Under the pieces are notes generated by a model. The model saw only the letters and a program-made list of their open reading frames with translations, was not told where the DNA came from and ran no database searches. 64,000 nucleotides of DNA from Limnomonas spitsbergensis (taxonomy: Eukaryota > Chlorophyta > Chlorophyceae > Chlamydomonadales). The position numbers were made by a program, and so were the translations under genes. The DNA lies in contig JAYJMM010000123.1 in NCBI GenBank assembly GCA_037349105.1, positions 1,426,001 to 1,490,000 on the forward strand. Direction: 5' to 3'. Numbering within the stretch: position 1 is the first letter of the stretch; the number at the start of each line of letters is the position of its first letter. Below are positions 331 through 59,540 of this stretch, piece by piece.

Positions 331-3300
331 GGTCTCAAGTGCACTGGCGACAAGAAGGCTGCTGCTGAGCAGATCAAGGGTCTGTACAACCTGTTTGTGA
401 AGGCTGACTGCACCATGGTGGAGGTGAGCCATGGGCTTGGGTTACAAGGGTTTAGGTCAGTACGACCTGTCTGGAAGGCAGACTGCACCTTGGTGGAAGT
501 TCTGTTGTGGGTCAAGGGTTTAGGCCTGTGCAACCTGCATGTCAGGGCCGACTGCACCATGGTGGAGGTGAGCCATGGGCTTAGGTTACAAGGGTTTAGG
601 TCAGTACGACCTGTCTGGAAGGCAGACTGCACGATGGTGGAAGTGTCTTGTGGGACAAGGGTTTAGGCCTGTGCAACCTGCAGGTAAAGGTAATGAATGG
701 CAAAGTTTTGTGTAGGTCCTCAAGCCTTTTAGAGGAGGGGCAGAAGGCAAGTTTTCTCATGCTGCATGCACCCCATGCGCTGTGCACGTGCATGTGGCCG
801 GCGCACCCCATGCGCCTAGTCTGCACCCCATGTGCTGCGCCTAGTCTGCACCTCATGTGCATGTTGCCAATGCACTGCAGGCTTGCATCCCATGCGTCAT
901 GCATGCAGTGAGGCATGGGGCAGGGCTGTAGTTCCTGGATGGAATTTGGAGGGCATGAATGGCTGCCAGCGGCTAGCTTGTGCGGGATTACAGCACTTGA
1001 CAAGTAACACCCTGGGAGCCCTCAAGACACCCTCTGACGCCCTGTAAATTACTAAAATCTGATTTAAAGCCAGTACCGTTTCCATCATGATCATTGCAAA
1101 CATAAATAAATAATCTGCGACTGGATGTCACAGTGGAAATGAGGATATGAGGATTCCTGAGTTCGCACACAGGGCTTGCCAGATGGCCGATCAGTTGACG
1201 CGACTCCCCTGACATACACTTCTGTAATTACGCCCCTGACCTAGGACCTGACGGCCTCCCGCGGCCCCTGGTGACCACTGAGCTCGCCCAGGTTGTAGAG
1301 TTCAGATCGTAGAAAGAAAGGAAAAAAGAAAGTTCATATTGTACCTGAACCCTCAGACATCAAACCCTGTAAAATTTGGTCATTAAGCCCTGATTTCTGT
1401 TACCGTATGCAGGTCAACCCGCTGGCTGAGGATGAGAAGGGCACCCTGATCGCGGCGGATGCCAAGATGGGGTTTGATGACAACGCTTCATTTCGCCAGA
1501 AGGAGATCTTTGCGATGAAGGACGACTCGCAGATCGACTCAAGGTGGGACACCAGGGGGGAGGGGGGGAGGGAAGACACTAGGACAGGCTGTGGAAGGCT
1601 TGGGGAGCTTCATCTACTCAATTTCCATAGTCAAGTATAGCAACATCCCTGTGCGGTTGCAACGCTCAAAACGAATATAATAATAACGCTTGGTGGGACA
1701 AGGCGGAGGGGGAAGAAGGGGGGAGTTTGAAATTATCTCAATGTGATGGGCAGCATGTTGATTCATCAGGGGTTCATCACCACACACACACACTTTCCCC
1801 TCTTCCTCCGTTCCCTCACTGACACCTCCACCCTCCGTCCCTCGCTGACACCTCCACCCTGGCTCTCCTTCAGGGAGGTACCTGCCGCCACCTCCACCCT
1901 CCGTCCCTCACTCACACCTCCACCCTGGCTCTCCTTCAGGGAGGTCGCTGCCGCCAAGGTCGACCTGAACTACATTGGCCTGGACGGCAGCATTGGCTGC
2001 ATGGTCAATGGCGCCGGGCTGGCAATGGCCACCATGGACATCATTAAGCTGCATGGCAGTGCACCGGCTAATTTCCTGGACGTGGGCGGGAACGCAAGCG
2101 AGCACCAGGTAGGGAATAAACTGGGACAAGCGGGCACCAGGGAATAGACTGGGACCAGAGGGCACCAGGCAGGGAATAGACTGGGACCAGAGGGCACCAG
2201 GCAGGGAAAAGACTGGGACCAGAGGGCACCAGGCAGGGAATAGACTGGGACCAGAGGGCACCAGGCAGGGAATAGACTGGTGCAAGCAAGAAGCTGATTA
2301 CAGTGATTGTTTGGTGATGTCCACTGTTGATCATACATTACTGAAATGTTTGGAACAACCGCCGCAGCCACCAGGCGCAAAAATCTCGATTCTCAGCTGT
2401 TTTCGCTTTTATTCGGTGCATGTCTGTGTGTGGATATTTTCAGTACCGAGGGAGTGATCTCAAGACCAATAGTTGTTCAATACCGTATTTCGGTACGAGT
2501 CGTACCCGGTAACGGCTAAAAAAATCACTGCCTACGAAGCATGACCCATGGTTGCCATGGAATCCAGAGCCTGCTCCTGATTCATGGATGATCCCTCTCT
2601 ATGCATTCCCTCCCCCTTCCTGACCGCCCCGAATTGGTGAATATTCCCTCTCCCATTCACCCGTCTCCCTCCCCCAGACGGCCCGCTCTTGACCGGAGGT
2701 GATTGGTGTTGCCTGTCAGGTAATGCCTAACCCCTTTGCCTACCCCCTCCCCTGACCGTGCAATGCCTCTTGCGTTCCTGTCAGGTTGTGGAAGCGTTCA
2801 AGATCTTGACCACGGATCCTCAAGTCAAGGCGATCCTTGTCAACATCTTCGGTGAGCCACACACACCTAATCCGCACTCAAAAGTTCACACCCAATCCAC
2901 ACACATTGTACACCCATGTGAAACCCAAGCCAACCTCCGATCAGCACAGGTTTGCAGCCTGATATCATAACCCATCACATTAACTGATTCAAGCGGATCT
3001 ATCTTTACCCTCTTCCCTGGTTCAGGGGGTTTAACCCTGAGCCTGATTTAGGCGGATTGATACCCTAACCACAATTCAGACGCTTTAACCCTGAGGCATT
3101 ACCCAGATCCAGGTAGCAAAGACCCAATCCTTGAAACTGACTCAGGTGGATGAAGTATTCAACCTTCCACCATAATTTAAACGGCTGAACCCTGAACCAT
3201 GACTTGCATCCAGGCGGCTGAACCCTGAACCCGAACCCCTGATGCAGGTGGTATCATGAAGTGTGACGTGATTGCGAGTGGGATTGTGAATGCAGCGCGT

Positions 3301-3777
3301 GAGGTTGGAGTCAAGGTTAGTGACAGTCTTTTGGGGGGCAGCTATAAGGCTGCCTGTCTGCCTGCTGCTGAGCGCCTGCGAGAGTTAGGCACCACCTTGG
3401 AAAAAAAATCAAAAAGCATTGATGCGCCATCTAGTGAATGTTGTGTGATTTTGAGTGGCTCATCCCAATCCTGTTGCAAAAAGGTTTCGACATAGTATTC
3501 CCCTTCTATTCATGTGTGTTCAGCCCTGAACCCCAGGGAAGACCAGCAGCGCAAGGCTTAGCTGACCTGTGGCTATTTTGCCTCGCGAAGCCGTCTTGAA
3601 ACCCTGTCCTGTAACTCCAAACCCTACCCCCCTGCGCAGGTTCCTTTGGTGGTCCGCCTTGAAGGCACCAATGTGGAGGAGGGGCGCAAGATCCTGAGCA
3701 CCAGTGGCCTCCCCATCATCAACGCCACCGACCTGGACGACGCAGCCAAGAAGGCCGTCCAGTCCCTGAAGCAATAG
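331..3777 (+). CDS. SCLB: Succinate-CoA ligase beta subunit, mitochondrial (5' partial)
   Basis: Beta subunit of succinyl-CoA synthetase, the TCA-cycle enzyme that interconverts succinyl-CoA and succinate with nucleotide phosphorylation in the mitochondrial matrix. Exons read 331-423, 1413-1543, 1940-2108, 2785-2851, 3248-3315 and 3640-3777; all junctions are GT-AG and phases join to 221 residues plus TAG. Family hallmarks are visible in order: DCTMVEVNPLAED (end of the ATP-grasp fold), [45 protein letters not shown], the segment ILVNIFGGIMKCD, and [17 protein letters not shown] near the C-terminus. The close match to plant mitochondrial enzymes is from memory of the family. The N-terminal half (about 200 residues with the transit peptide) is not found in the window. 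Introns 1, 2 and 3 carry duplicated splice junctions. The 3' UTR runs into a LINE tail at about 3.8-3.95 kb. Confidence 0.95.
406..693 (+). repeat. 144-bp tandem duplication of exon end plus 5' splice site
   Basis: The last exon bases and donor (GACTGCACCATGGTGGAG followed by GTGAGC) at 406 recur at 550, exactly 144 bp later. Two more diverged half-copies start at 481 and 625, again 144 bp apart. The array therefore consists of two 144-bp units, each made of two related ~70-bp halves, and it begins inside the coding exon. Confidence 0.9.
1826..1957 (+). repeat. 66-bp duplication of 3' splice site plus exon start
   Basis: The polypyrimidine tract, CAG and first exon bases (CTCCTTCAGGGAGGT) are present twice, with CAG at 1871-1873 and 1937-1939. 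Only the second copy leads into the full open exon ([13 protein letters not shown]), so the first is taken as an upstream decoy. Confidence 0.85.
2101..2283 (+). repeat. ~32-bp minisatellite seeded on a 5' splice site
   Basis: Exon end GCACCAG plus donor GTAGGGAATA starts a run of about five units of roughly 32 bp (GGCACCAGGCAGGGAATAGA and flanks). In later units the GT has become GC, so the copied donors are mostly inactivated. Confidence 0.85.
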
Positions 3778-3789
3778 ACACCTGGAAGT

Positions 3790-12300: not shown

Positions 12301-13700
12301 GAACGGTGCATGCGGGGGAGGCTGTGGTGGGCCGCCGGCAGCCACAGGCTGCGCAGGAGAAACAAATGGGATACGGAATTTATGACGTAAAAAAGGTACC
12401 GTATTACATTAGAAAGCACCGTATTAGATGTGGATTAACAAGACTTTGCTGCATCGTTTAAGCCATCATGGACTGATTTCATGGGATTACACCTGGAGTT
12501 TAGCGGTAGCAAGGGTTTGCAGTGGTGTCACACAGCAACGGGCAGTTGAGGCAGTTACATCACTACACCAGGAGTTACTGAGCACCAGTTGTTTGAAGCA
12601 GTTACACCAGAGTACTAGGGTTAACGCAGTAGCCTGTTCCGCCAGTCAGCGTACTACAAATGTCGTCACAAATACTGTAGCTGGATAATGTAGCTTGCAT
12701 ATGATAAGCACTGCCGTATATGGCCCCACAGGGCAGTACAAAGTGCGTCGTGTGACATGTACCTTCAAGCTCCTTCAGCTGGGTGGGCATCTACTCAGCA
12801 GGGAGACCAGGAGCAGCAGCTGCCTCTTTTTATTGTGGGTTGTTTCAGCATAGGATGCTGCTGGCCGTAGGTCGGTCAAGGTCTGAGTTTGGTTACCATC
12901 GGCCCAGTGGTGGCCGCCCTGTGGCCTGTCAAGGGCGGTCTAGTGCTAACTGCCAGAACACTTTTTAGTTCCTAGGCCAGGCTCTCCCATATGCATTTTT
13001 GAGGGTCCTGAATTAGTTAGGTCCTCGTCCTGACCATCTCCTGATCGGTCAGTGGGATTTTGGTGCCCCCATAGACTGTTTAACTACCTGCAGTGCATCC
13101 CGTGCTCAAACATCCTGAATTATTTGGCTTGAAGTACTGAACATCTCATGATCGGCGGTTGTGGTATCCTACCGAGCGATGTGCACATGCTACTTGCGAT
13201 CGTAACAGGTCTAATGCAGTGCCCTTTCTTGTGGCATACCTATGGACAGCAAAATTGTCGGCGGTCCTGGTATATCTGTATTTGCATGTGCATAATGAAT
13301 AGCACAGGGAGATGAATAAAGTACGAATGCGTAGATGATTCCACACTTATGCTACAGACAGGCACCCGTATGCTACAGGCAGGCACCCTTCCATTATGCG
13401 GTAGAGCCTACCCGCTGTTGTGCACCAGGATGCATCCCAAGCACTACACCCTAGACCCTTGACCCAATCGCTAATCCCAAACCCTAACTGTCAATCCTCT
13501 GCTGCTGCACACCTGTATGCATCCGAGGCAGTTGGTCATGAGGCTGCCTCAAACCCTAACTGTCAATCCTCTGCTGCTGCACACCTGTATGCATCCGAGG
13601 CAGTTGGTCATGAGGCTGCCGCAAGTCATCTCGGGGTTCCATGTCTCAAACTGAGCGGGGGAGACCCCGTAGTACAAGCTAATCAGGCTGCACGTCAGGC
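9362..13700 (-). CDS. Secreted LysM / proline-rich / CAP (PR-1-like) protein, 5' incomplete
   Basis: Exons in transcript order are 13700-13585, 12348-11434, 10988-10905, 10477-10374, 10079-9992 and 9514-9362 (stop at 9364-9362). All have GT-AG borders and consistent phase, giving about 485 residues. The first exon is a LysM-like motif, LISLYYGVSPAQFETWNP, with flanking Cys residues; LysM motifs bind N-acetylglucosamine polymers. Next come about 300 residues of PPPPSPPPP type, a hydroxyproline-rich wall-protein rod. The C-terminal ~142 residues are a CAP/SCP domain: LDRHNMYRTWHGVQALGWSD, CWFEHSDYYYGENLALGF, WYREI, GHFTQLVWAGTSL, GCAIGYCPYG. The CAP metal-site tetrad (His in FEHS, Glu in GEN, Glu in WYRE, His in GHFTQ) is complete. 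The signal peptide exon is not secure. Likely extracellular matrix or secreted; the biochemical function is unknown. Linking the LysM exon to the rest rests on phase and position. Confidence 0.8.
10241..10324 (-). pseudogene. Degenerate copy of the CAP 'GENLALGF' exon
   Basis: Between the two last CAP introns a second copy of the exon at 10374-10477 can be read: GGNLALGFSTFTPEVDVWYK against GENLALGFPSFTPVVDAWYR. The catalytic-site Glu of GEN is Gly here and the FEHS His is lost. There is no donor in the expected place and the frame runs on into the intron. It is either an exon relic or, less likely, an alternative exon. Confidence 0.65.
13479..13622 (-). repeat. 72-bp tandem duplication at the LysM exon 5' splice site
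   Basis: The exon end and donor (minus strand GGATGCATACAG then GTGTGC) exist twice, at 13585-13596 and 72 bp further into the intron at 13513-13524. The unit includes the LysM exon's last ~40 bases. Confidence 0.85.
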
Positions 13701-13749
13701 CTGCAAGCAGCAGTTCATCACAGGGCATTCTGTCAAGGGATACGGACAC

Positions 13750-14170: not shown

Positions 14171-14174
14171 TGCC

Positions 14175-44900: not shown

Positions 44901-47900
44901 GTCTGTCCCGTCCTTCTACCCTGCCATCCCTATCCCACATGCCCAGCCTCTGCCCCAGTCTCCACCCTTCAACCAACATGCCCAGCCTCTGCCCCAGTCT
45001 CCACCCTTCAACCAACATGCCCAGCCTCTGCCCCAGTCTCCACCCTTCAACCAACATGCCCAGCCTCTGCCCCAGTCTCCACCCTTCAACCAACATGCCC
45101 AGCCTCTGCCCCAGTCTCCACCCTTCAACCAACATGCCCAGCATCTGCCCCAGTCTCCACCCTTCAACCAACATGCCCAGCCTCTGCCCCAGTCTCCACC
45201 CTTCAACCAACATGCCCAGCATCTGCCCCAGTCTCCACCCTTCAACCAACATGCCCAGCCTCTGCCCCAGTCTCCACCCATCAACCAACATGCCCAGCCT
45301 TTGCCCCAGTCTCCACCCTTCAACCAACATGCCCAGCCTCTGCCCCAGTCTCCACCCTTCAACCAACATGCCCAGCCTCTGCCCCAGTCTCCACCCTTCA
45401 ACCAACATGTCCAGCCTCTGCCCCAGTCTCCACCCTTCAACCAACATGCCCAGCCTCTGCCCCAGTCTCCACCCATCAACCAACATGCCCAGCCTCTGCC
45501 CCAGTCTCCACCCTTCAACCAACATGCCCAGCCTCTGCCCCAGTCTCCACCCATCAACCAACATGCCCAGCCTTTGCCTCCAGTCCCCCATCCCTCCATC
45601 TCTTGTCAACATTGAAGTATTCCACCTCCATCCTCTGCCCCCTCTCCCCCCCACCCCTCCCCTGCTCCTGGCAGGCATGATGTCCAACCTGCAGACTCTG
45701 TGCCTGTCCCACAACCGAGTGGGCGATAAGGGTGCATGTGCCCTGGCCGCGATGCTCATCAGCGAAGGAGTGTCCTCATCGGTGCCGCTGCTCAAACTGG
45801 AGCTGGAAGGGAACCAGGTGGGGTGGAGGTGTAGGGTTGAGGTGGAGGGGAACCAGGTGGGGTGGAGGTGTAGGGTTGAGGTGGAGGGGAACCAGGTGGG
45901 GTGGAGGTGCAGGGTTGAGGTGGAGGGGAACCAGGTGGGGTGGAGGTATAGGGTTGAGGTGGAGGGGAACCAGGTGGGGTGGAGGTGCAGGGTTGAGGTG
46001 GAGGGGAACCAGGTGGGGTGGAGGTGCAGGGTTGAGGTGGAGGGGAACCAGGTGGGGTGGAGGTGTAGGGTTGAGGTGGAGGGGAACCAGGTGGGGTGGA
46101 GGTGTAGGGTTGAGGTGGAGGGGAACCAGGTGGGGTGGAGGTGCAGGGTTGAGGTGGAGGGGAACCAGGTGGGGTGGAGGTGTAGGGTTGAGGTGGAGGG
46201 GAACCAGGTGGGGTGGAGGTGTAGGGTGGAGGTGCAGGGTTGAGCTGGAGGGGACCAGGCGGGGGGGAGGGTTTAGGCCTTAGGCCTTAGGATTCAGAGC
46301 AGAGATGTTTCGTTAGGTCTCCCTCCTTTTCTCTCCTTCCTCTTTCTCCTTATCATTATCTGCACTTCTTTGTCTCTGCTCCTGCTACAGCTGCATGGTT
46401 AGCTTCCTTAAGCCAAGCCTTGGGGCATATCTTTATTTATTTGTAAGTCAAGCCTCGGAGCGTGTTGTGCATTTATTTATTTATAAACCAAGCTTCGGGG
46501 AGTGCTTTATTCAATGACCTTTCCATGCTGTGCAGCTAACTGATCTTGGTGATCTGACACAGCGACACTGTTAGACGAGCTTGTTTCTTTCGAATCAGTT
46601 AAAACCTGAAGCTGCAGCCTTCATGCTGCGCAGATCACTGATGTTGGTGGCCTGGCTTTGTGCAAGGCGGCCAAGGGTGCCCTGGTGCTGTCCCGCCTCA
46701 ATGTCAGCCACAACAACATGGGGGACGGGACCATGCTGGCCGTGGCGGATGCACTGAGGTTCAATACAGGTGAGAATGTGTGCTGAGGCTCAGTGGTTGG
46801 TGGTGGTGGTGGTGGTGGTAGGTGTTGTTGTGGGATCAGATGAGGGATCAGTGGTTGGTGCTGGTGGTGTTGGTGGTGGTGGTGGTAGGTGTTGTTGTGG
46901 GATCAGATGAGGGATCAGTGGTTGGTGCTGGTGGTGTTGGTGGTGGTGGTGGTAGGTGTTGTTGTGAGATCAGATGAGGGATCAGTGGCTGGTGGTGTTG
47001 TGGGATCAGTTGAGGGATCAGTGGTTGGTGGTGTTGTGGGATCTGTTGAGACTTGAGACAGGTGGCCGCCCTTGGCGTAGAAAGCCTTAACCCTGCAGGC
47101 ATGAACCCTCCCCCAGACACCCTCAAGAAGAGCCTTGAACCCTAAACCTTATCCCCTAGGGATATTTTTGGAGCTTGAACTTCAAAACCCTTTTCCGTAG
47201 GCAACCTCCATAAGGAACCTGACCCCTTTCCCCAGACTCCCTCGTGGAGGACCAGGCATATGTCCCATGCATCAAATGTGATGCTCTGCTGGACTGTAAA
47301 AACTTCACAAAACTTCACAGGAGGACCCTGAACCCTTCTCCCCCTGACAGCCTCAATGAGACCCTTGAACCCTAACTGAATTAGGGACCATTTAGATGCT
47401 GAACTTTGAGCCCTGACCCCTTTCCCCAGACACCCTCAATAAGAACCCTGAACCCCCTCCATCCCAGGCACCCTCAAGGAGGTGGCAGTAGCCGGCTGTC
47501 GCTGTGGTGAGGCGGCGGTCGTGGCAGTCATCCAAGCGGCAACCAAGAACAACAGCCTGCACCTGCTAGACGTCCGCGGTGTTCCGCTGGGGCCAGAGGT
47601 GCGGATCCAGGGTTAAGGGTATGGGGTTTAGGAGTATATAACAGCCTGCACCTGCTGGTCGTCCAGGCTGTCCCGCTGGGGCCAGGGTGAAGGGTTGCAG
47701 GGGCCTCATAACTCGAAGGGCTTTAGCCTGCACATGGTGGACGTCTGGGGATGTCCCACTGGGACCAGAGCTATGAACCCGGGGACTAGCACTCACGTGT
47801 GCAGGGTGCTGCTTAGCAGTGCCAGTGGCTCAGCGTTTTTGAAGATACGTGATCTTTATCGTGCATTTGAGCGCAGGGTGTTGCACAGCTGTGTCAGATG

Positions 47901-50900
47901 TTGCGCTACACGGCCACGCTGAATACGCTACGTCTGGATGTCGTGTCGCGCGACTGCGCGGAGCTGGTGGCTCGGGAGCTGCCTAACAACCGCAGGTGCG
48001 GACCGACAAATCAAATGAATTTGGAAATAAATGTGCGTTCGGGAGATAGTGCACTCGAGTACCTGAACCCAAACACCTAAACCCACCACCTCTCACCTTA
48101 TCCCCAAGGCTGCCCCCAGCCTGATGCACACGCCACTGGTCCGTCAGGCTCCGGAGCGCCTTCCGACCATAATGATTGAGATAAATGGAAATCCATGCCG
48201 TGTTTCGTGTTAATTCCTCACCTGCGCCACCCACACCCTCTCTCCCCCAGCCTCATGCACCCCACACCTGAACCCACCCACACCCTCTCACCCCCCAGCC
48301 TCATGCACTCCACACCTGAACCCACCCACACCCTCTCACCCCCAGCCTCATACACCCCACACCTGCACCGCCCACACCCTCTCACCCCCCAGCCTCATAC
48401 ACCCCACACCTGAACCCACCCACACCCTCTCACCCCCCAGCCTCATACACCCCACACCTGCACCGCCCACGCCCTCTCACCCCCCAGCCTCATACACCCC
48501 ACACCTGCATCGCCCACACCCTCTCACCCGCAGCCTCATACACCCCACACCTGAACCCACCCACACCCTCTCACCCCCCAGCCTCATACACTCCACACCT
48601 GAACCCACCCACACCCTCTCACCCCCCAGCCTCATGCACCCCACACCTGAACCACCCACGCCCTCTCACCCCCCAGCCTCATACACCCCACACCTGCACC
48701 ACCCACGCCCTCTCACCCCCCAGCCTCATGCACTCCACACCTGAACCCACCCACACCCTCTCACCCCCAGCCTCATACACTCCACACCTGCACCGCCCAC
48801 GCCCTCTCACCCCCAGCCTCATACACTCCACACCTGCACCGCCCACACCCTCTCACCCCCCAGCCTCATACACCCCACACCTGCACCACCCACGCCCTCT
48901 CACCCCCCAGCCTCATACACTCCACACCTGAACCCACCCACACCCTCTCACCCCCCAGCCTCATACACCCCACACCTGCACCGCCCATGCCCTCTCACCC
49001 CCCAGCCTCATACACTCCACACCTGAACCCACCCACACCCTCTCACCCCCAGCCTCATACACTCCACACCTGCACCGCCCACGCCCTCTCACCCCCAGCC
49101 TCATACACTCCACACCTGCACCGCCCACACCCTCTCACCCCCCAGCCTCATACACCCCACACCTGCACCACCCACGCCCTCTCACCCCCCAGCCTCATAC
49201 ACTCCACACCTGAACCCACCCACACCCTCTCACCCCCCAGCCTCATACACCCCACACCTGCACCGCCCATGCCCTCTCACCCCCCAGCCTCATACACCCC
49301 ACACCTGCATCGCCCACACCCTCTCACCCCCAGCCTCATACACCCCACACCTGAACCCACCCACACCCTCTCACCCCCCAGCCTCATACACTCCACACCT
49401 GAACCCACCCACACCCTCTCACCCCCCAGCCTCATGCACCCCACACCTGCACCACCCACGCCCTCTCACCCCCCAGCCTCATACACCCCACACCTGCACC
49501 ACCCACGCCCTCTCACCCCCCAGCCTCATGCACTCCACACCTGAACCCACCCACACCCTCTCACCCCCAGCCTCATACACTCCACACCTGCACCGCCCAC
49601 GCCCTCTCACCCCCAGCCTCATACACTCCACACCTGCACCGCCCACGCCCTCTCACCCCCCAGTCTCATGCACCTGACACTGGGAGGTCCGGTTCCGGAG
49701 CATCTCCTCGCGATGATGAGCGAGATCCTTGCTGCCAACACCATGCGGGCGGTCTCCGTCTCTCCAGGTGAGAGGATGGACACTGAGGGGGGCAGCTGCC
49801 TTGGTGCTAGGGTTGGACATCTTGTTCGTCGGGGTTCAGGGTGCCACTATCTAGGTATATAGCGTAGACATCTTGTTTGTCAGTTTGAAGGGTGCTACTA
49901 TCTAAGTATCTAGGGTGCACTGTGTTTCATTCACCCTCCGCTGGCTGCATCTGCCCCTTTGCAGTCCGCTCCTCCCCGCACATTCATGCTTGGATCGAGA
50001 ATGCCTCGATGGCCTCCGGACGCAAAGGTAAAGATGGGTTATGCTACTGATGTGGTGGGGGATGGGTTGGGGAAGATGCAGGGCTTAGCACTTCTTCCTG
50101 TGCTATGAGGAGGGTGGCTGCGAGCCTTAGTTTGCCAGGTGTTCTCACATTGCGGCCTCATGAGGAGTATCACGAGGATGCCGAAGCCATTATTTCTCTA
50201 AATTCTCCCTCCCCCCTCGCCACCCGTACAGGGGCCTCCTCCTCCTTCTCTGCTCTGCCCTATAGCCAGCAGGCGGCGGGCAGCAGCACGGGCCGTGCAA
50301 GGTCCATATCCCCTAGGCCCAGACACGGCCCGCGCTCTGAAGCTGGCGGCAGCGTGTACAGCCACAACACGTACAACACGGCCAACACGCAGCGCACAGC
50401 CGTGACCGCCGTCTCGTTCCAGTTCAGCCAGGTGGGGGTTAGGGTTCAATTGGGCAAATCTGGATTTGGGTGGGCACTTGGGGTTCAGGTAGGTGGGTAA
50501 GGGTTTGGGTGGACATTTAGTGCTAATGCGGATAACTTAGGGTTTGGGTGGGCATCTAGAATTAATGCAGATAAGTGAGGATTTGGGTGGGGTAACCGCC
50601 ACTAGGTATGCGACTGGGCGTCCCGATGCTGTTGGGCCCTGCTGCCTGGCATGGGGTAGCTGGTGCAGCGGTGCGAGCATAAGCCCTCATGCCCCTCAGA
50701 TGCCCATGTTGCTGTGTCCACAGAATTATGTCCACCGCATTGTCCAGCCCAGAGAATGATGTTCCTCTCCCGGATGAAATGCACGTGATCCTGATGCCAG
50801 CAATCCCGTTATCTTTCATGGCAGTTCATATCCCGGGACTGGATGCTCCCTTGTTGCGCCTTGGAAGAACATGGTGTTTCCACTTCTGATGAACTGCCAG

Positions 50901-53900
50901 ACCGGCACAAGGGCTGTCCTTCGTGTCTTTGCACTGATTATATACCTGAAACCCTTACATGAGGCCCTACACCCTCAACACTGAGACCCTAAACCCTGAG
51001 TGATCTGCTTGTTTCCCTGCCAGATGAGCCGCAAGACTGGCATGAGTACCAGCCCGGGTGCTATGAAGATCAGCAACAGCCTGGCGGCTGGAGGAGCTGC
51101 CGAGAAGGCAGCCATCATCTTCCGCAAGCATGACCAGAACCAGGACAACTACCTCAGCAGGTGAGTGCGGAATCACTTGCATGATGAGAAAGTGAAATGG
51201 GGTGGGCGGCCATGATTTACCGCCAGCACGATCAGGATCAGGACTTCTGACTGGTTGGGCATGCGTGCAGTACAACTTCATAACCAGGTGGATGCATGTG
51301 TGCATTCATGAGTTATGATCTGACAAGCAGGTGGATGCATAGACTGATCAGGGTTGAGTGTTGGCAGTGCTGCATGATCAGGGTTTAGGGTAAAGCCATA
51401 CACTAAAACATTTTTGTCACAAGCCATTTTTCTCATGCCTTAATGCCTCCACTAGCAGTTCAGGGATAAGATTGTTGGCAGTGCTGCATGATGAAGGTTT
51501 AGAGCATAGCCCACACCCTAAAGCCCTTTTTCCACTACCCCTTTTTCCGTCCACCCCTGAGCAGGGATGAGATGCTGGCAGCAATGCATGAGGTTGGCGT
51601 GCTGACGGGATTGAAGGCGCGACACGTTGGTGAGCAGTGGGCAGTACCTAGCAGCAGGAAGGGTTGAGTAGCGGGAAGAGGGGGGACAGCAGCAGGGAAG
51701 AGGGCAGGAAGGGCAGTAGTTAGGAGGGTGGGATGGAAGGGTAGGATGGGAGGGTGGGATGGAAGGGTGTGATGAGAAGTGGGTAGGAGGGTGGGATGGG
51801 AAGTGGGTAGGAGGGTGGGGCTGGGAAGTGGATAGGAGGGTGGGATGGGCACTCTGTGATCAGCGGAAAGGGGGGCAGGAGAGGGGTCGGAGAGCAGGGT
51901 GCATCGGCCTGAGCATGGGGTCAGGGTCACAGGGTTGGGGCCCGGGACATGGGGGGGGAGATGGATGCCCTGTGCACAGTTGAGAGTTTAGGGTTTAGGA
52001 AACCCAGGGGCTAGGGGTGAGAGATGGATCACCAGTGAGCAGTGGAATCATGTAGGGGCGGGGCATGCAAGGGGAATGCTTCCTTCGGGCTGCTCCTGCA
52101 AACAAGCGCTAAATGTGCATTTATTTTGACCGATGGCCTTTCCTGTATTTTGACATGATGCCGTTAAGCCTACCCCCTGGTTGAAGTCACATTTTGACTG
52201 TGGGCATGCCACCCATTTCAAGAAAATGCTTATGGGCCTGCCCCTTTCAGGCCGCATCCTGGATGCCGAGTTCAAGAAGGCTGACCGGGATGGAGACGGC
52301 CGCATCAGCCTCCAAGACTTCATCAGCTGGTGAGACACAGCAGGGTGCAGTAGCAGCATCTTGATACTTAACCTACAAAACCTAGAGCAGAGAAGGCCAC
52401 ATCAGCCTGAAAGACTGCATCAGCTGGTTGGAGATAACAAGAAAGCGGCGGCAGTGACAGCAGGCCCCTAAACCCTAGATTTTATGCAGACGCGGTGGCC
52501 TGCAGGATTTTAACACCTGGTAGCAGGCAACAGGCAAGCAGCAGCGGGACATTCATCCCTAAACATGCGACCCTGTACAGCCCTTCCTTTGTTGCTCGGC
52601 ACCTTGTGGCAGTATGTGTGGATCTGTGAAGACCAAGCAGGAAGGAAGCACGGCGGACTGCATTGGTGGCCTAGATCCTGCATCTGAGTACCTACATAGC
52701 ATGGGCGTGCCTGTTCAAAGATCCCTGAACCCCTGAACACTTGCGCGCAGGTACGACCAGATTGCAAAGTTCCAGTCTCAGGCCACTCGCGAGGGACGCA
52801 TCAAGTCTGCGACATACAAGCATCAAGTCCCTGTGGGTGAGTGGGTGTCTGTTCTTTTTGTTTTTGTCCCCACAGCGGTTGACAAGCATCAAGTCCCCGT
52901 GGGTGGGTCTTTTGCCGGGCAGTGCAGCCGGGAGGAAGGAAAACGTAGAAGTTGTTATTGCGGTTGAATGACAGCTGACAAGTGTCAGGTCCCAATGGAT
53001 GAGGGGGTGTCTGTTCTAGTCGTTTTGTTCCCCCAGCGTTTCCCTGTCCTCCGCCTGAACCCTGCACCCTGGTTTTGCCCCCCCTCCGCCCCCCTCCCCA
53101 CGCATCCAGAATAACCCTGCACTCAAGTCAGTGTTAAAGAATAATTACAAGCTTGCCTGCCCTCACACCTAGACCCCCCCCTCTCCGTCTCCCTCCTTAG
53201 GTGTCCAGAACAACCTTGCACTCAAGCGCGTGTTCAAGAACTATTGCAAGTTTGCCCTGGGTCAGGGCCGGCTATACACCCAAGAGAGTGTTTCCATGAT
53301 GAACATGCCTCAGTTCAGCCGACTGTGTGCAGACGCTGGCTTTGTGGAGCCAGATGGTGAGGCGGGATATGCATTTATGAAGGGGATAAGGACTTAGACA
53401 TTCACCTATGCCTTTACCGTCAGTGTAAACTTCAAAGAAAATATTGCTGATCCATATCGTTTCAGTTCCTTCCCCTTGCCCATGTGGATCCCTCAGCCCT
53501 TAGCCCTGGCTCCCTTTGTCCCCTCCCCTCTGTGTTGCCTCTCTTGATCCCGCACCCCTCACCCCTCATTCCCCAAAGGTGGCCACAACCCTCACCGCTG
53601 ACCCCTCACCCCTCATGCCTAACAGGTCGCCTTAGCTCCACGGCGGTTGAGGTGATATTTTTCCGCTACCGGCCCACGGGCTCTAGGTGAGAGAAGTGTA
53701 ACATGGTGTGACCAAGCGTAAAAGGGTGTGACAGGGTGTAACCTAGTGTACATGGTGAAACCAAGTGTAAATGGTTAGGGTTTGGCCATCTCTGACTCCC
53801 ATCGGCACCTGTGTGTTTTTGTGTGTGTAGGCGCCTAGCCTACAAGGAATTTGTTGAGGCTCTGGCGGCAGTGGCGCACGAGGCGGACGTGCCGTTTGAG

Positions 53901-56900
53901 GATGCGATGATGATCCTCGGCTGCAGGATGGGCGGACAGCCGCTGACGCCGGAGACCTCAACAACGGTAGGTCGCCGGAGGCAGGGAAGCGGGGAAGGAG
54001 GGTGGGTGGGAATGCAGGATGGGTGGACAGCAGCTGATCCTGGAGACCTCGGAGCCGGAAGGTGTGAAGGGGGGGAAGCAGGATGGCTGGGCCAGAGTGC
54101 AGGATGGGTGGACACTTACTGAAGCCGGAGACCTCCGCGGTAGATAGTCCACAGGGGGGAAGGGGGGTGAAGGAAGTAGTCAGGGCAGGTAAGGAGGATG
54201 GGGAAGCGTGGTGGGGCGGGGCAAGAAATCAGAATGGTGACCTCGTTTGGAGTAAGCAGACAGCAGGGACGTGGGGCATGCAGGAAAGTAAAATGCAGGA
54301 AAGTGGGGCGGAAAGCAAGACGGGGTGGGAAGCAGAGCAGGGCAGATCAGGTAAGCAAGATGGGGAAGCGGGTTGGGGTGGGGCAGGATAGCAGAATAGT
54401 AAAATGGAGACCTCAGCGGTCGGGGGTGGCGGGCTGTGGGGTAGGCAGGAAACTAAGACAGGGAAATGGGGCAGGAATCAGAGCTGGGCAGGTCAGGGAG
54501 GAAGGATGGGGAAGCAGGGTGGGGCGGGGGGCGGGGCTGACTGGAACTGACATGAGTAAATGACGGCGTGAAGTGAAAATCCTGATCAACAATCGATATT
54601 GCCAGCTTTCTAACAGCAGAGCCTGGGCAGCCACACACGATTCTGCTTCCAATGTGCATGCAGGGATTTGGGTCACGCAAAGCACCTCTACCATCTGGGA
54701 CCGACCTTGACCTATTCCAGGCAGAAAAAAAAAGCAAGGCAGGATTTGCCACGGACAATAAGTTTGGGTTACGTATCTTGACCCTACCCCCCTGACCCTC
54801 CCATTGCTTCTGTAGAGAGGCAGTGACGGCGGTAACGGCCCTGATGGCCTGGCAGCCCTGGCAGCGGTGTTCGCCGCCAGCGGGCCGGCAGCCTCAGCCT
54901 CCGAGGCGGCCAGCAGGTCCGGGCTAGAGGCAATCCAGGAGGTACCTGCTGGAGGTGAGCGACTATTCAGCCAGCAGGAGGGGGTCGGGTTTTCACTCCT
55001 TAGGGTTTCAAGATTTTAACCCTGAGGTTTATAATTTGAAAACCCTGAAATTCATAATTTTGAACCTTCAGTTTTAAAAATGTTATCCCTTCTAGGTGGA
55101 TGAACTTGTGAATGTTTTTGCCGTGGCTCGAGGCCAACCAGCAGGTGCCGTCTGAGGGCGAGTGTGCAGCCAGACAGACAGATAGCTAGAAGGATAGCTA
55201 GAAGCTTAAAACCTCAAACCCCTGAGGAGTAATTACCTGCAGTCATCCCCTGGTTCCAGCCGGGGGTAACCACCTGCACTCATCCCAGGGTTGCTGGTGC
55301 GCTCCCCATCTCAACATGCAATGCAACGCCTTGTTGCTCAGAGGGTGTTGCTTGATATCTCCCTTTGCTGATTTCTTATTTCACAATCCTGCATTCTCTG
55401 GCACTGAGGGTTAAGGGATTTGTCCCTAAACCCCAAGGCTTCAAGTGCTTGCTACTGCAATATGGCACAAGCCACCGCTTGCGGTAGATTTGGAGTCGAT
55501 GTATAGACGCTGCCGACCGCAACTGTGGGATTTTGCTACTGCAACAAGAACTTAAGTGTGCTTGCTGCTGCAGCAGCAGCATCAGGGCTAGGGCACCCGA
55601 CTCCTAAGCGCAACCTGGAACCTTAAAACCCTCAGGCGGCACCCCGGGCAAGAAGACGACCGGCATCCTCAAGAAGAAGAAAAAGGCGGCCGTCGGCGGC
55701 TCACCCTCCTCGGCCGCCGCCTCCGCTGACGTCGCCAACCCACTGTTCGAAAGCATGGAGGGCATGCTGAAGAAGCTGAGCCTGGATGGCCCCGGCATCA
55801 CCAAGCAGGCCGAGGTGCGCGGCCTGGAGGCACGGCTGCAAATGCTGGAGAGTAAGCTGATGGCTTCGGAGCACATGAAGCGGTACAACACCAGCATGCA
55901 GGACGAGGATGTGAACTCGAGGATGCTCAAACTGGAGAACACGGTGAGTTGATGGGGCAAGGCTGGACCTTAAACCCTAAAAGAGGGGGATGGTAACATT
56001 GTGTCAACCCTCATCCTTGAGAGAAGGGGGGGGGGGAGCTGGAGATATTACTTCAAGGGTTTGGGCTGGGGAACACGATGAGTAGACGGGGCAAGTCTAG
56101 ACCCTTTACCCTAAAAGAGGAGGAGGGTGTGAACCCTTCTCCTTGAAAGAAGGGGGGGGGGGGGGGCTGGAGAGAACATAAAGAGGGGATGGGCTGGTGG
56201 ACACGGTGAAGAGGGGGCTGTGGCTTCACCTTCAAGGCGGGAAGGTGGACTAGAGAATGCGGAAGGGGCATGGCTGAACCCATAACCTTCAAAGAAGAGG
56301 GAGGTGTATAAAACCCGAGAATGGTCATGGCACGGCTGCGAACTCGTCAACCCTGCTGCCTAATACGTCACCCCCCGCAGACCGGTGCTGTTAGTCAGTC
56401 AGTCCCTCTCATTCGCCAGCCCTTAAGTGCAGTATCAGGGCACTCTGGCACGCTCAAGCATTACATCCCTACCTTTGTTTCTAGGCAGGTAGAGGGTACA
56501 CTGGCGGGAAACCTTCGACCCATCATTTGAAGCCTCAGACATTGTAATCCTGCATTCAAGTGGAGGGCCCTCTAGTAGGACACCCTCAACCCTGCATTCA
56601 GGTGGAGGGCACTCTGGTAGGACACCCCAAAGCCTGCATTTAAACACCAAACATGTGTATCCTTCTTGCAGGTGGAGGGCACGCTGGCTAACCAACAGCA
56701 TATGGGGCTGGTATCAAATCAAATGACCAGCCTACAGGTAAGAGGAATGGTAAACCTCAAGCTTGGTGGGGTGGACACTAAACCCTCACTCCCCTGAATA
56801 GGCTGCAGGTGAGAGGAATGGTAAACCTTAAGCTTGGTGGGGTGGACACTAAACCCTCACTCCCCTGAATAGGCTGCAGTTGAGAGGATTGGTAAACCCT

Positions 56901-59540
56901 AACCTTGGTGGGGTGGACACTAAACCCTCACTCCCCTGAATAGGCTGCAGGTGAGAGGAATGGTAAACCTTAAGCTTGGTGGGGTGGACACTAAACCCTC
57001 ACTCCCCTGAATAGGCTGCAGGTGAGAGGAATGGTAAACCTTAAGCTTGGTGGGGTGGACACTAAACCCTCACTCCCCTGAATAGGCTGCAGGTGAGAGG
57101 AATGGTAAACCTTAAGCTTGGTGGGGTGGACACTAAACCCTCACTCCCCTGAATAGGCTGCAGGTGAGAGGAATGGTAAACCTTAAGCTTGGTGGGGTGG
57201 ACACTAAACCCTCACTCCCCTGAATAGGCTGCAGGTGAGAGGAATGGTAAACCTTAAGCTTGGTGGGGTGGACACTAAACCCTCACTCCCCTGAATAGGC
57301 TGCAGGTGAGAGGAATGGTAAACCTTAAGCTTGGTGGGGTGGACACTAAACCCTCACTCCCCTGAATAGGCTGCAGGTGAGAGGAATGGTAAACCCTAAG
57401 CTTGGTGGGGCGGACACTAGACCCTCAAGAGGAATGGTAAACCCTACATTGGCTGGGGGTAGTGAACGAGTGTCAAAGTTTTGTCCTAATTGGTCCAGTA
57501 GTGGCCTGTGTTTCAAAAATCTTAATTTTGTTATGCTGCGCTTCTTTCTGCCTGGTGTTCAGTAGTGTTCACCCGACATCATTATCCACGTAAACACACA
57601 CAAGCCTTGTATCCCGTCCTCTCTCCAGGGTTGGCTATGTAGGGTTGAGGTTTAGCGCAAAACCCTGAACCCTATCTCTTTTTGCATGCCTTTATGTCTA
57701 GGATTGAGGTTGAGCGCGCAGTCCTAATCCCCTCGCTCCACAATCCATATGCATGGCGAATAAGATCATTCTGGATTGGCCTGTTGGGGTGCAAATATTG
57801 ACAAAGTGTGTTCATGTCGCAACAAAGTGAGATACCCGCCATGCAGGGCCTGCTGTTGAGCATGGTCAGGGAGATCAGTCTTATTCATTTTAGTACTTTG
57901 TAGCATTTTGCTGTTGTAACATCACAATCCATGGGCAGGGCCTGCTGTCCAGCATGGCGAGTGAGATTGCAGACATCCAGGCATCCCGCAGCTCAGCTGC
58001 ACCCCCCCTAGACCCTTACAGCCCTTCAACCCTCATGTGCAGGGCCTGCTGTCCAGCATGGCGAGGGAGATTGCAGACATCCAGGCATCCCGCAGCTGCG
58101 GGGGTGGCGGCTCCGGAACCACCTTGGCCGTGGAGGCGGGAGCAGGGAGGTGGGGCCAGGGGAGCCAGGCCAGGGCGGCAGAGGTGGCGATGGCTGTGGA
58201 TGGCCTCGCTTCAGCTGTGGCACGCCTGACATCGGAGGTGAAAACGGTGGCAGGTGAGGAGGGAGGTTAGGGTGACGCGGGAGATGTGGGCAGGGAGGGG
58301 GTGAGGCAGGAGGCAGGATGACTGGACAGCAGGGAATATTTCGGTTGGGCGGTTGCCTGCCAAGGCGCACAGTGGTGACTGTGGTGATATGGGAGGGCAG
58401 GTGGGAGGGGGGAAGGAAGGGTTGAGGGGGGTGCAGGTGAGGATGGCATGGGCGGCAGGGGGGGTGAGGGAAGCTTAAGGGCTGCTAGGATCCAGGGGTA
58501 GGAGGAGGAGGTGGGGGATGCGTGGAAGATGCATCTCGTGACGTATGTTTTGCTATTTCCCTTGTTTCGTTTTGCTATATTCCCTGTCATCAAAATTCGA
58601 ACTACATGAATGATTGCTTTACTTTTTTTTATGCTGCAGAGGTCGTCAGCCATACTGCTGCCACACCTACCTACCTGAATACCCCCCTTGACCTGCTTAT
58701 TATATGTTTCTATAACACTACAGTGCAATCAATCTTCTTATTTTCTCTGTCTTCTCAGGCCGTGTGGATGGCACTCGGCTGGAAATGTCTGCACTTCGCA
58801 GCCAGCAGCAGCAGCAGAGGCTGTTGATGCCCACTGCTGGGGACCCGACCATGGACCTGGCATCTGCATCGGCCAGCCTAGAGAGGAAGATGGCAGAGTG
58901 GCAGTCCCGCTTTGAGGGCGCGTTGATGCAGGTGAGGAAGAACGTTGAACGCAGTGTTCTAAAGTAGGGTTAAAGAGAAGGATGACAGCGGCAGTCACCC
59001 TTTGAGGGTACGCAGAAGCAGGTTGCAAGAGGGTCGGAAAAGAGTCTTGATAACATGTGATGTGAATGGACGTTTCTCTGGGAGCCTGGTCTTGCTTGCC
59101 CCCCCACCCCACCCTTCTTCCTCCTCGATCCTCCATCCATCCAACTGCCCCCCCCCCTCCCTCTTGCGCCGCTGCGGGCTGAAATCTACACCTTTCCCGC
59201 CGCTGCTTCCTGCTGCGCATGAAGTATATGGCCTGGAGGGGAGGCAGCGCAAGGATCAGCAGGCTCCCCTGATTCCCCTTGTGTCAGGATTAACCCTAAA
59301 CCCTTCATATTCTCTGTTCTACGTCAGGTTGCACGCCAAGTAGATGGCCTGGAGGGGAGACTGCGTGAGGAGCAACAGGCCTCCCTGCAGGCCATTGAGA
59401 GCATGCTGGCGCAAGCGGGCCTGCCGCCTCCCTCCTCAGCGCTGGCGGTGCGCATGCCAACATTGAAGCCGGGCGCTCTGCTGGCCGCGGGGGACCGCCA
59501 CCCGGATGTGCAGCAGGTTGACAACATGCCCTCCTTCTGA
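38963..59540 (+). CDS. LRR / EF-hand / p25-alpha (TPPP) / coiled-coil protein, 25 exons
   Basis: Exons: 38963-39041, 39242-39372, 42810-42900, 43451-43644, 44200-44332, 45675-45817, 46634-46769, 47468-47598, 47877-47995, 49664-49767, 49965-50027, 50232-50431, 51024-51160, 51565-51629, 52251-52329, 52751-52836, 53201-53356, 53626-53686, 53831-53966, 54816-54954, 55636-55943, 56672-56737, 58043-58253, 58759-58931, 59328-59540. All are GT-AG and sum to 3354 nt, giving 1117 residues. Residues ~20-420 are RNase-inhibitor-type LRRs (LQTLCLSHNRVGDKGACALA). Two EF-hand loops follow at about 545-556 (DQNQDNYLSRDE) and 587-598 (DRDGDGRISLQD). A p25-alpha/TPPP domain spans about 636-718 (LKRVFKNYCKF, FSRLCADAGFV, VEVIFFRYRP). 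A Lys cluster and coiled coils (~800-1080) complete it. p25-alpha proteins bind tubulin and track with cilia, so an axonemal or microtubule role with Ca2+ control is inferred. The start is the first ATG before the LRRs. Exon 4's acceptor was chosen by phase. Confidence 0.9.
39757..41260. repeat. 51-bp minisatellite (intron 2, array I)
   Basis: About 28 units of GGTGTGAGGGTGCATGTGCT, then CTGATTTGCATGCACATGGA, then GCACATGGGCC. Because 51 is a multiple of three and the unit lacks stops in several frames, 400-550-codon open frames appear on the minus strand. They have no other gene features. Unit variants (GGGGCATATGGGCCAGTGAA) recur in blocks, indicating higher-order duplication. Confidence 0.95.
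41455..42620. repeat. 49-bp minisatellite (intron 2, array II)
   Basis: About 24 units of GGATATCGCCTGATGGCCGG, then GGGACCGCTGACTCCCATTT, then TGGATGATA. It starts ~200 bp after array I. The middle units are almost identical and the two ends more diverged (ATATTGCCTGATGGCTGAGG). The period is not a multiple of three, so all three frames are open in turn. Confidence 0.95.
42880..43145 (+). repeat. Donor-derived repeats after exon 3
   Basis: Exon 3's end and donor (GCTTCAATGAGGGTGCGTAC) recurs almost exactly at 43006 (AGCTTCAATGAGGGTGCGTA). It is followed by three or more ~30-bp units AACGCAATGAGGGTGGGTGC. Confidence 0.85.
43960..44190. repeat. (CTCCTG)n / (CTGCTG)n microsatellite before exon 5
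   Basis: Tri- and hexanucleotide units (GCTCCTGCTGCTGCTCCTGC) run up to 10 bp from the exon 5 acceptor (CGTGGTAG). The Leu-rich and Ala/Pro-rich open frames over it are composition artefacts. Confidence 0.85.
44330..44565 (+). repeat. Donor-derived repeats after exon 5
   Basis: Exon 5's end (CACTCATTTGGCCAAGGCTT TTGAGAGC, donor GTAAGAGG) is echoed at about 44357, 44400, 44440, 44480 and 44525 (TCTCACTTGGCCAAGGCGTT). A ~80-bp composite unit (GAGCATGGGAGAGAGAGGGG) is repeated twice. Confidence 0.85.
44850..44900 (+). repeat. Distant copy of exon 6 acceptor and start
   Basis: CCTGCTCCTGCCAAGCATGA TGTCCAAGCC at 44862 matches the true CCTGCTCCTGGCAGGCATGA TGTCCAACCT at 45662, 800 bp away. The acceptor AG is changed to AA. 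The 39-bp array lies between the two. Confidence 0.85.
44930..45590. repeat. 39-bp minisatellite (array III)
   Basis: About 17 units of CCCAGCCTCTGCCCCAGTCT followed by CCACCCTTCAACCAACATG. The pyrimidine-CAG composition mimics 3' splice sites. A 13-codon period gives long open frames on both strands. Confidence 0.95.
45805..46245 (+). repeat. 39-bp minisatellite built from the exon 6 donor (array IV)
   Basis: Each of about 10 units contains the exon 6 end and donor (GGGAACCAG then GTGGGG): GTGGGGTGGAGGTGTAGGGT, then TGAGGTGGAGGGGAACCAG. The period is exactly 13 codons and the coding frame stays open (GNQVGWRCRVEVE) through the whole array to about 46243. Any of ~10 donors could therefore be used without a frameshift. 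Confidence 0.95.
46796..47045. repeat. (GGT)n-rich repeat, ~66-bp units
   Basis: GGTGGTAGGTGTTGTTGTGG GATCAGATGAGGGATCAGTG units, about three and a half copies, within intron 7. Confidence 0.85.
47640..47775 (+). repeat. Two copies of the exon 8 end plus donor
   Basis: CAGCCTGCACCTGCTGGTCG ... GGGGCCAGGGTGAAGG (47643) and AGCCTGCACATGGTGGACGT ... GGGACCAGAGCTATG (47727) echo exon 8's end (CAGCCTGCACCTGCTAGACG ... GGGGCCAGAG, donor GTGCGG). Confidence 0.85.
48105..49670 (+). repeat. ~47-bp minisatellite built from the exon 10 acceptor (array VI)
   Basis: About 30 units of CCTCATACACCCCACACCTG, then CACCGCCCACACCCTCTCAC, then CCCCCAG lead up to the genuine acceptor (TCTCACCCCCCAG at 49651-49663) and the exon 10 start TCTCATGCACCTGACACT. 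Each unit thus reproduces pyrimidine tract, CAG and the first exon bases. A first isolated copy (CCCCCAGCCTGATGCACA) is at 48112. Blocks of several hundred bases are themselves duplicated. Confidence 0.95.
51205..51255 (+). repeat. Copy of the exon 13 end
   Basis: GGCGGCCATGATTTACCGCC AGCACGATCAGGATCAGGAC echoes exon 13's GGCAGCCATCATCTTCCGCA AGCATGACCAGAACCAGGAC, about 100 bp after the real donor. Confidence 0.7.
51350..51510 (+). repeat. Two upstream copies of the exon 14 start
   Basis: GTTGGCAGTGCTGCATGATC (51359) and GTTGGCAGTGCTGCATGATG (51474) echo exon 14's GCTGGCAGCAATGCATGAGG (51573). Confidence 0.65.
52385..52440 (+). repeat. Copy of the exon 15 (EF-hand) end
   Basis: GGCCACATCAGCCTGAAAGA CTGCATCAGCTGGTTGGAGA copies GGCCGCATCAGCCTCCAAGA CTTCATCAGCTGGTGAGACA from the exon 15 border about 95 bp earlier. 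Confidence 0.8.
52870..53030 (+). repeat. Two copies of the exon 16 end plus donor
   Basis: GACAAGCATCAAGTCCCCGT GGGTGGGTC (52880) and GACAAGTGTCAGGTCCCAAT GGATGAGGG (52977) echo the exon 16 end TACAAGCATCAAGTCCCTGT GGGTGAGTG. Confidence 0.85.
53095..53165 (+). repeat. Upstream decayed copy of exon 17
   Basis: ATCCAGAATAACCCTGCACT CAAGTCAGTGTTAAAGAATA (53106) copies exon 17's GTCCAGAACAACCTTGCACT CAAGCGCGTGTTCAAGAACT (53203). Confidence 0.85.
54000..54440 (+). repeat. Donor-derived copies after exon 19
   Basis: The exon 19 end (GCAGGATGGGCGGACAGCCG CTGACGCCGGAGACCTCAAC) recurs at about 54016 (GCAGGATGGGTGGACAGCAG), 54100 (GCAGGATGGGTGGACACTTA) and, shorter, 54407 (GGAGACCTCAGCGGTCGGG). Between them are GGGGAAGCAGG-type units. 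Confidence 0.8.
55930..56220 (+). repeat. Donor-derived ~120-bp repeats after exon 21
   Basis: CTGGAGAACACGGTGAGTTG ATGGGGCAAG (exon 21 border) is echoed at about 56067 (CTGGGGAACACGATGAGTAG ACGGGGCAAG) and 56190 (CTGGTGGACACGGTGAAGAG). Poly-G runs sit at 56025-56037 and 56152-56166. Confidence 0.85.
56480..56640 (+). repeat. Upstream copies of the exon 22 start
   Basis: CAGGTAGAGGGTACACTGGC (56484), CAAGTGGAGGGCCCTCTAGT (56557) and CAGGTGGAGGGCACTCTGGT (56599) echo the genuine CAGGTGGAGGGCACGCTGGC at 56669. Confidence 0.9.
56725..57420 (+). repeat. 71-bp minisatellite built from the exon 22 donor (array VII)
   Basis: About nine units of GTGAGAGGAATGGTAAACCT, then TAAGCTTGGTGGGGTGGACA, then CTAAACCCTCACTCCCCTGA and ATAGGCTGCAG. 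The real border is CCTACAG-GTAAGAGGAATGG. Each unit ends in CAG and begins with GTGAG, so each junction looks like a full donor; one unit carries a mutated donor (TTGAGAGG at 56880). Confidence 0.95.
57835..58042 (+). repeat. Two upstream copies of the exon 23 start
   Basis: CAGGGCCTGCTGTTGAGCAT GGTCAGGGAG (57845) and CAGGGCCTGCTGTCCAGCAT GGCGAGTGAG (57938, extending ~65 bases) precede the genuine copy at 58040. The 57938 copy keeps an acceptor and 65 open bases, so it is a possible alternative exon start. Confidence 0.9.
58980..59035 (+). repeat. Copy of the exon 24 end
   Basis: AGCGGCAGTCACCCTTTGAG GGTACGCAGAAGCAGGTTGC copies the exon 24 end AGTGGCAGTCCCGCTTTGAG GGCGCGTTGATGCAGGTGAG about 80 bp downstream. 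Confidence 0.8.
59215..59275 (+). repeat. Upstream copy of the exon 25 start
   Basis: GAAGTATATGGCCTGGAGGG GAGGCAGCGCAAGGATCAGC precedes and matches exon 25's CAAGTAGATGGCCTGGAGGG GAGACTGCGTGAGGAGCAAC. Confidence 0.85.

Follow-up and report, generated by a model that had tools for sequence, protein, structure and literature searches.

We analysed a 64,000-nucleotide stretch of the genome of the green alga Limnomonas spitsbergensis (contig JAYJMM010000123.1, positions 1,426,001 to 1,490,000 of the forward strand; this whole stretch is referred to below as the window, and coordinates count from its first letter), in which introns carry copies of the exon-intron borders that flank them. These border copies are widespread in the genome, and the borders themselves are neither hot spots nor seeds of duplication. 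The account of them that we favor, and hold with considerable confidence, is a very dense short, local and direct duplication throughout non-coding DNA, with copies often 50-200 bp apart and largely kept out of exons.

Two gene models were built by hand and supplied the 27 introns that served as the test set for the window. The first (331..3777, forward strand) comprises six exons (331-423, 1413-1543, 1940-2108, 2785-2851, 3248-3315 and 3640-3777) in an in-frame GT-AG model, its 5' exons preceding the window; it encodes a PF00549 domain, from which we take it to be the succinate-CoA ligase beta gene (SucC). The second (42810..59540, forward strand) has 23 exons, its first (5') exons not having been found, and was modeled from GT-AG borders, homologues and a check of the exon junctions; going by their Pfam numbers, its domains are presumably LRR, EF-hand and p25-alpha, and we refer to it as the p25-alpha-like gene. 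Its closest protein relatives come from Chlamydomonadales. As all 27 introns of the two models have GT-AG termini, the frame stays open to the stop, and 19 of the 22 exon junctions of the p25-alpha-like gene are gapless against its homologue from Chlamydomonas eustigma (junctions 9, 17 and 18 bear a gap mark), the finding of border copies rests on real introns.

Each of these introns was aligned with the 60 exonic bp immediately before it and the 60 exonic bp immediately after it; stretches of equal length from other introns served as the null, and a match was counted at p<0.02. On the donor side 12/27 introns contained a copy of the end of the preceding exon, and on the acceptor side 7/27 contained one of the start of the following exon, as against 1/27 each for reverse-complement queries, and 0/14 and 2/16 for the wrong end of the exon. 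This confirms the observation of an earlier note on this DNA that introns carry copies of the preceding exon end with its donor and of the acceptor with the next exon start. Most single borders, namely 15/27 donors and 20/27 acceptors, have no significant copy in their own intron by this test. The note had also proposed exon-interior segments as a control. In the window these recurred at just 2/14 and 1/16, but this comparison is unable to discriminate border targeting from generic duplication, because a short tandem duplication confined to the interior of an exon never reaches the intron.

The phenomenon is not confined to the window. Genes in the adjoining 100 kb on either side were predicted with a small gene finder that we had trained; it recovers 26 of the 29 known exons (these being in its training set). 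It yielded 180 new introns, of which 162 could be tested (100-6000 bp long, with enough exon and target) using a 400-bp target and 60 nulls; copies were found at 34/162 donors and 31/162 acceptors, with 6/162 and 0/162 for the reverse complement. Comparison with homologues validated 60 introns of two further predicted genes that lie beyond the window, 34 of 53 in one and 26 of 34 in the other, and among the 59 long enough to test there were copies at 16 donors and 17 acceptors (reverse complement 1/59 and 0/59). Further afield, loci for dynein heavy chains on three other contigs and at 3.39 Mb of the contig that holds the window provided 14 introns from 18 pairs of exon hits, four of them with poor splice scores; here 8/14 donors and 6/14 acceptors had copies, with 0/28 for the reverse complement. 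Border copies are thus widespread in the genome, as sampled over about 310 kb of 260 Mb. The published assembly comprises 260.248 Mb in 124 contigs with a GC content of 54.15%, an average PacBio coverage of 63x and a mean intron length of 788 bp, according to the accessible part of its report (PMC11228838).

Are the borders special? The control of choice is a point inside the same intron. The paired set comprised 76 introns, none shorter than 360 bp: 46 were homology-checked, 21 came from the window and 9 from the dynein loci, the four poorly spliced dynein introns being excluded. At least one border copy was present in 40 of these introns, and nearby copies were detected in 51/152 border tests as against 331/760 tests at interior points. 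The mean within-intron difference, border minus interior, was -0.10 (bootstrap 95% confidence interval (CI) -0.20 to 0.00), and -0.07 (CI -0.15 to 0.02) when strong matches only were counted. Interior points likewise had copies in 67/224 and 59/224 cases in the ab initio set, and in 53/138 and 49/138 cases in the homology-checked set. In the window genes 19% of interior intron points are spanned by ungapped repeat pairs, compared with 22% for other DNA and 9/54 for borders. As for seeding, 58/192 interior 60-mers from 32 introns of at least 700 bp resembled the two border regions of their intron, and 64/192 resembled two 120-mers drawn at random from its interior; 28/192 resembled their own exon ends alone. 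Since the interior resembles the borders no more than it resembles other interior stretches, borders are not seeds in particular. A first comparison had pointed to border-derived interior repeats (80/144 locally repeated interior 60-mers as against 25/168 others); this signal vanished against interior reference stretches. Edges other than splice borders are copied too: the final 60 coding bp of the p25-alpha-like gene, including the stop codon, have a decayed copy in the 3' flank at 59598..59656 (forward strand), which scores 96 where the best of 200 nulls reaches 92. The stop edge of SucC was not significant, 55 of 200 nulls being as good; among predicted genes, copies were present at 2/13 stops and 2/14 starts.

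The strongest competing explanation is a border-targeted duplication tied to splicing or transcription, for instance through R-loops or breaks at nucleosome or exon edges, which would copy borders and seed intron growth, much as the earlier note had supposed. It would account for copies at a third of the tested borders, nearly all of which cross the border, for the deep-interior 60-mers that resemble their own exon ends, and for the dynein sample, where the rate of copies at borders (14/28) is above that at interior points (29/96). We nevertheless consider it improbable. The border rate is not above that of the interior of the same introns, where the dynein subset alone goes the opposite way; interior DNA is no more like its borders than like other interior DNA; repeat pairs span borders no more often than random interior points or unannotated DNA; and a stop codon, which is no splice border, has been copied as well. 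Nor do the two sides of an intron obey different rules, as had been claimed. In the ab initio set exon ends recur on the donor side of introns in 34/162 cases and on the acceptor side in 17/162, and exon starts recur on the acceptor side in 31/162 and on the donor side in 11/162. This donor-left, acceptor-right arrangement follows from locality alone, because any short-range duplication yields it.

The generic character of the process was apparent from a density scan, in which 60-mers taken every 60 bp were compared with the next 800 bp and scored as matching if they beat 30 nulls. Matching 60-mers made up 318/1042 of those from the window and 202/475 of those from a distant stretch of 30 kb (265/475 when the nulls were drawn from elsewhere), as against 32/475 in E. 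coli K-12 and 20/475 in first-order simulated DNA. Duplication is direct, with reverse-complement queries matching in only 72/1042 cases in the window and 51/475 in the distant 30 kb. Strong scores were reached by 23% and 51% of the algal queries, by 3% and 2% of the reverse-complement ones, and by none from E. coli or simulated DNA. Duplication is also local: with a histone-like tandem array excluded, 729 ungapped pairs had offsets of 15-600 and 50 had offsets of 8000-8585, and 397 of the 729 lay below 210 bp. Over 264 kb, local copies were found for 46% of 250 intron, 27% of 4062 unannotated and 26% of 34 exon 60-mers, and the near pairs take up 12% of the coding and 26% of the intron DNA of the two window genes, and 25% of other DNA. 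Exons are therefore poorer in copies, not free of them.

To characterize the border copies we used a border-spanning query of 70 bp (45 bp of exon and 25 bp of intron) for 191 donors and 191 acceptors, a design to which offsets below about 45 bp are invisible. Copies cross the border in 55/56 donor and 49/52 acceptor matches, as they should if the border is part of the copied unit, and 82 of 108 lie at an offset of at most 200 bp from their source. They are mostly decayed, with an exon-side identity of about 80%. Splice dinucleotides are kept in 42/55 donor and 34/49 acceptor copies, where 37 and 32 are expected from the identity of each copy; mismatches by codon position amount to 0.19, 0.18 and 0.22 (donor) and 0.22, 0.17 and 0.23 (acceptor); and the offsets modulo three (remainders 0/1/2) are 19/13/24 for donors and 11/25/16 for acceptors. 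As mismatches fall on all codon positions and the retention of dinucleotides is close to expectation, the copies look non-coding and not visibly purged as decoys. Retained dinucleotides in most copies might also be taken to mean that they are functional, serving as alternative exons or as splice-site reserves under selection. This is quite unlikely, given that retention fits the overall identity of each copy, that mismatches are about equal over codon positions, and that frame-keeping offsets are not in excess. The near-equal mismatches had also led us to consider error-prone copying; this was dropped, as constraint on synonymous sites is possible.

Introners are a known route to new introns (as stated in the accessible part of PMC9860276), and the copies could be imagined as dispersed, introner-like intron-building elements inserted at borders. 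We regard this as very unlikely, as what is copied is an exon end of the gene itself, and as a search of the whole 260-Mb genome with three border-copy units (the arrays at 44309..44549 and 56735..57427 and the copy at 53105..53157, described below) returned near-identical matches solely at their own loci, rather than the many similar copies in unrelated genes expected of introners. Sensitivity was low in this search, in which only near-identical copies are detectable and diverged ones would be missed: the copy at 53105-53157 did not return even the exon that it resembles. An assembly artefact from collapsed or mis-stitched repeats is equally hard to credit, since, even though tandem arrays are difficult to assemble and the copy numbers of the arrays given below may be inexact, most border copies are decayed and lie well within one long read of their source, and the likely source assembly rests on PacBio reads at the coverage quoted above from the accessible part of PMC11228838.

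Returning to duplication throughout non-coding DNA as the preferred explanation, we envisage that such DNA would be repeatedly lengthened, wherever this is tolerated, by short and presumably neutral local direct duplications that abut their source or lie a short gap apart, whereas those arising inside exons would mostly be lost. At a splice border the exon-proximal site would stay in use, so that the extra exon end with its donor, or acceptor with its exon start, would turn into intron, after which the new copy would presumably decay as non-coding DNA and some units would expand to minisatellites. The proposal of the earlier note that repeated short duplication enlarges existing introns, some copies growing into minisatellites, is upheld. 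At the level of DNA, we consider staggered breaks that are filled in and then end-joined, together with slippage in the case of arrays, a better candidate than a splicing- or transcription-linked process. A list of 30 recent pairs bears on this point: once nine harmonics of larger arrays are removed and two rows that record one event are counted once, 20 distinct events remain. Judged by hand, the two copies adjoin directly in 11 of these 20 non-array pairs, and in the other 9 they are separated by about 20-90 bp without a match. Because of these intervening stretches simple slippage is probably not the whole story; they hint at break repair with filler or at later indels.

Besides these separated pairs, several observations weigh against the above explanation. 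Local copies do exist for exon 60-mers of the window genes, 9/34 of which beat 30 nulls, although just 12% score at least 100. One of the four dynein loci (L028 on contig C86, three introns) lacks border copies, and the dynein sample as a whole, which is small and has poor splice scores in 4 of its 14 introns, favors borders over interior points. The interior points include minisatellites and are thus not independent events. Third-position mismatch is just slightly raised, and below what is expected if silent sites of the source evolve as fast as the copy. Finally, extra decay on the intron side of the copies was expected and not seen, the identities being 0.68 and 0.65 on the intron side and 0.70 and 0.60 on the exon side, as against 0.50 for unrelated DNA. 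Given this absence of extra intron-side decay and the barely raised third-position mismatch, the model of age and decay is incomplete. The similar identity of the two sides also removed support from the idea that conserved exons keep border copies legible for longer than interior ones.

Related processes have been described in other organisms. Vaughn and Bennetzen in 2014 reportedly traced insertions in rice to break-induced tandem duplication, and both the Rogers model and the work of Hellsten in 2011 are said to derive intron gain from AGGT tandem duplication. In flies and primates, some 80-90% of short insertions are attributed to short tandem duplications, simple or complex (Messer and Arndt, as cited in the available text of PMC2374710). 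As far as that text goes, these duplications resemble the algal ones in being direct, local and tandem or near-tandem, but in the alga the units are longer (31-144 bp in arrays, with border copies mostly 50-200 bp apart) and the process far more frequent, about a third of splice borders and 30-43% of the sampled 60-mers having a local copy. Fill-in by Pol alpha-primase/CST at 3' overhangs gives rise to break-induced tandem duplications in mouse and human cells (accessible portion of PMC8355091). These are likewise tens of bp long and arise without pre-existing repeats; they have been demonstrated experimentally in those cells, a role in the alga being conjectural. Cases of introns gained when an exon segment with AGGT is duplicated in tandem are documented for the potato RdRp gene (PMC4974935) and for Drosophila (PMC2891723), again from the parts of these papers available to us. 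There too the splice sites come from a tandem duplication and former exon sequence is turned into intron, but in the alga already existing introns are lengthened. Local sequence duplication is also a broad source of non-coding sequence in the regulatory DNA of flies (PMC3188502), an account that, in its available part, apparently does not concern introns or splice borders. The mutation class and intron gain by tandem duplication are already known, and what appears unusual in the alga is the density of the process and its visible effect on most genes looked at. A limited search of the open-licence literature, over titles and the starts of abstracts, found no published description of this border pattern.

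These introns offer a clear record of intron lengthening without transposons, in which exon edges act as tags for the origin of intron DNA. They also provide natural tests of splice-site choice, with real sites competing against their own nearby copies: eight exact copies of the donor context lie downstream of the real donor at 56737, and 29 acceptor-like copies precede the real acceptor of exon 49664-49767. More generally, counts of border copies require an intron-interior control before a splicing-linked process is claimed. As a tentative extension, which we put forward as a possibility somewhat short of an even chance, a standing mutator-like bias, such as filled-in and joined break ends or weak correction of slipped strands, might make local duplication the chief source of non-coding DNA. 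Introns would then be patchworks of their own neighborhood, with about one in seven of the deep-interior sites sampled (28/192) recognizably derived from exon ends, and the spliceosome would have to pick the outermost of about nine near-identical donors or thirty near-identical acceptors.

The individual copies and arrays are as follows, on the forward strand unless noted; arrays were located with Tandem Repeats Finder (TRF), and values of p refer to the 60-bp exon-end or exon-start test. All the minisatellites named in the earlier note, with units of 144, 32, 39, 47 and 71 bp, are recovered by TRF. In SucC the 144-bp unit (2.2 copies, 382..690) lies over the donor of exon 331-423 (p=0.01), an ungapped pair at offset 144 spanning the border and the top copy of the exon end being at 510-567. 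A 66-bp unit in two copies (1823..1956) covers the acceptor of exon 1940-2108; here a pair at offset 66 spans the border, with the 60-bp test giving only p=0.08. The 32-bp unit (5.7 copies, 2102..2280; TRF only) starts from the last seven bases of the same exon and includes its donor, the 60-bp match of which (p=0.02) sits outside this array at about 2417-2464. A decayed copy of the start of exon 3640-3777 lies at 3509..3562 (p=0.01).

Within the p25-alpha-like gene, the donor border of exon 42810-42900 is copied at 42997..43016 (p=0.01, with support from TRF and ungapped pairs), followed by a 31-bp array at 43035-43137. An array of 44/88-bp units (44309..44549; TRF, p=0.01) repeats the end of exon 44200-44332 with its donor. 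Exon 45675-45817 has a decayed copy of its start at 44874..44909 (p=0.01) and gives its end and donor to the 39-bp array at 45800..46239 (TRF, p=0.01). For exon 47468-47598 the top-scoring copy of the start is at 46836..46888 (p=0.01), further ones closer to the exon being seen by eye, and a decayed copy of the end is at 47638..47687 (p=0.01). The acceptor and start of exon 49664-49767 are repeated over 48121..49674, as a decayed copy (48121-48179) and the 47-bp array (48219-49674; TRF, p=0.01). Copies of exon ends, each at p=0.01, are further found at 51205..51252 (exon 51024-51160) and 52390..52426 (exon 52251-52329), both decayed, at 52882..52902 (exon 52751-52836, where a pair at the longer offset of 162 spans the same border), at 54013..54050 (exon 53831-53966, with others downstream by eye) and at 55121..55154 (exon 54816-54954). 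Copies of exon starts, also at p=0.01, are found at 53105..53157 (exon 53201-53356) and 57939..57993 (exon 58043-58253), and the last intron holds both a donor copy (58971-59021) and an acceptor copy (59212-59271), with p=0.01 each. The 71-bp array (9.8 copies, 56735..57427) has a unit that contains the donor of exon 56672-56737 and is supported by TRF and ungapped pairs, the 60-bp exon-end test at this donor not being significant (p=0.94); both the 32-bp and the 71-bp units include just the final few exon bases and the donor.

Two further cases from the earlier note stood in part. On the reverse strand near 13.5 kb a 72-bp unit in two copies (98% identical, 13478..13624; TRF) does lie over the predicted donor of exon 13585-13700, but the gene, itself a prediction, encodes a CAP domain (PF00188), and Pfam gave no LysM domain, which the note had named, in the piece submitted. 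In the 30-37 kb gene, where all large introns had been said to show the pattern, we recovered one copy of an exon start, in which 85 bp at 30420-30504 match those at 30586-30670 with 95% identity (30420..30670 in all; predicted exon 30596-30708), the statistics having covered other genes; copy and source are separated by an apparently unmatched stretch of 81 bp.

Among other features, two large minisatellites (51 bp x 27 and 49 bp x 23) occupy 39817-42593, immediately upstream of the first detected exon of the p25-alpha-like gene; in the arrays of 51-bp, 49-bp and 67-bp units at 39.8-42.6 kb and 46.8 kb no border sequence was seen by eye. On the reverse strand at 5515-6785 there is a coding repeat of 99 bp (33 residues) in 12.8 copies, ankyrin-like by eye, which the gene finder fuses, probably in error, to the CAP-domain gene. 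To the left of the window, a predicted FRY-like (cell morphogenesis) protein contains repeats that keep the frame within its predicted exons (two copies of a 19-residue unit and about seven of a 15-residue unit), which may be donor copies mistaken for exon. The histone-like tandem array lies 6-51 kb to the right of the window, at about 70-115 kb in its coordinates, and comprises about eight units of 5.58 kb, as judged from the spacing of predicted genes; the protein encoded by a predicted 411-nucleotide coding sequence within it begins like what we take to be histone H3, so that the array is presumably a histone gene cluster.

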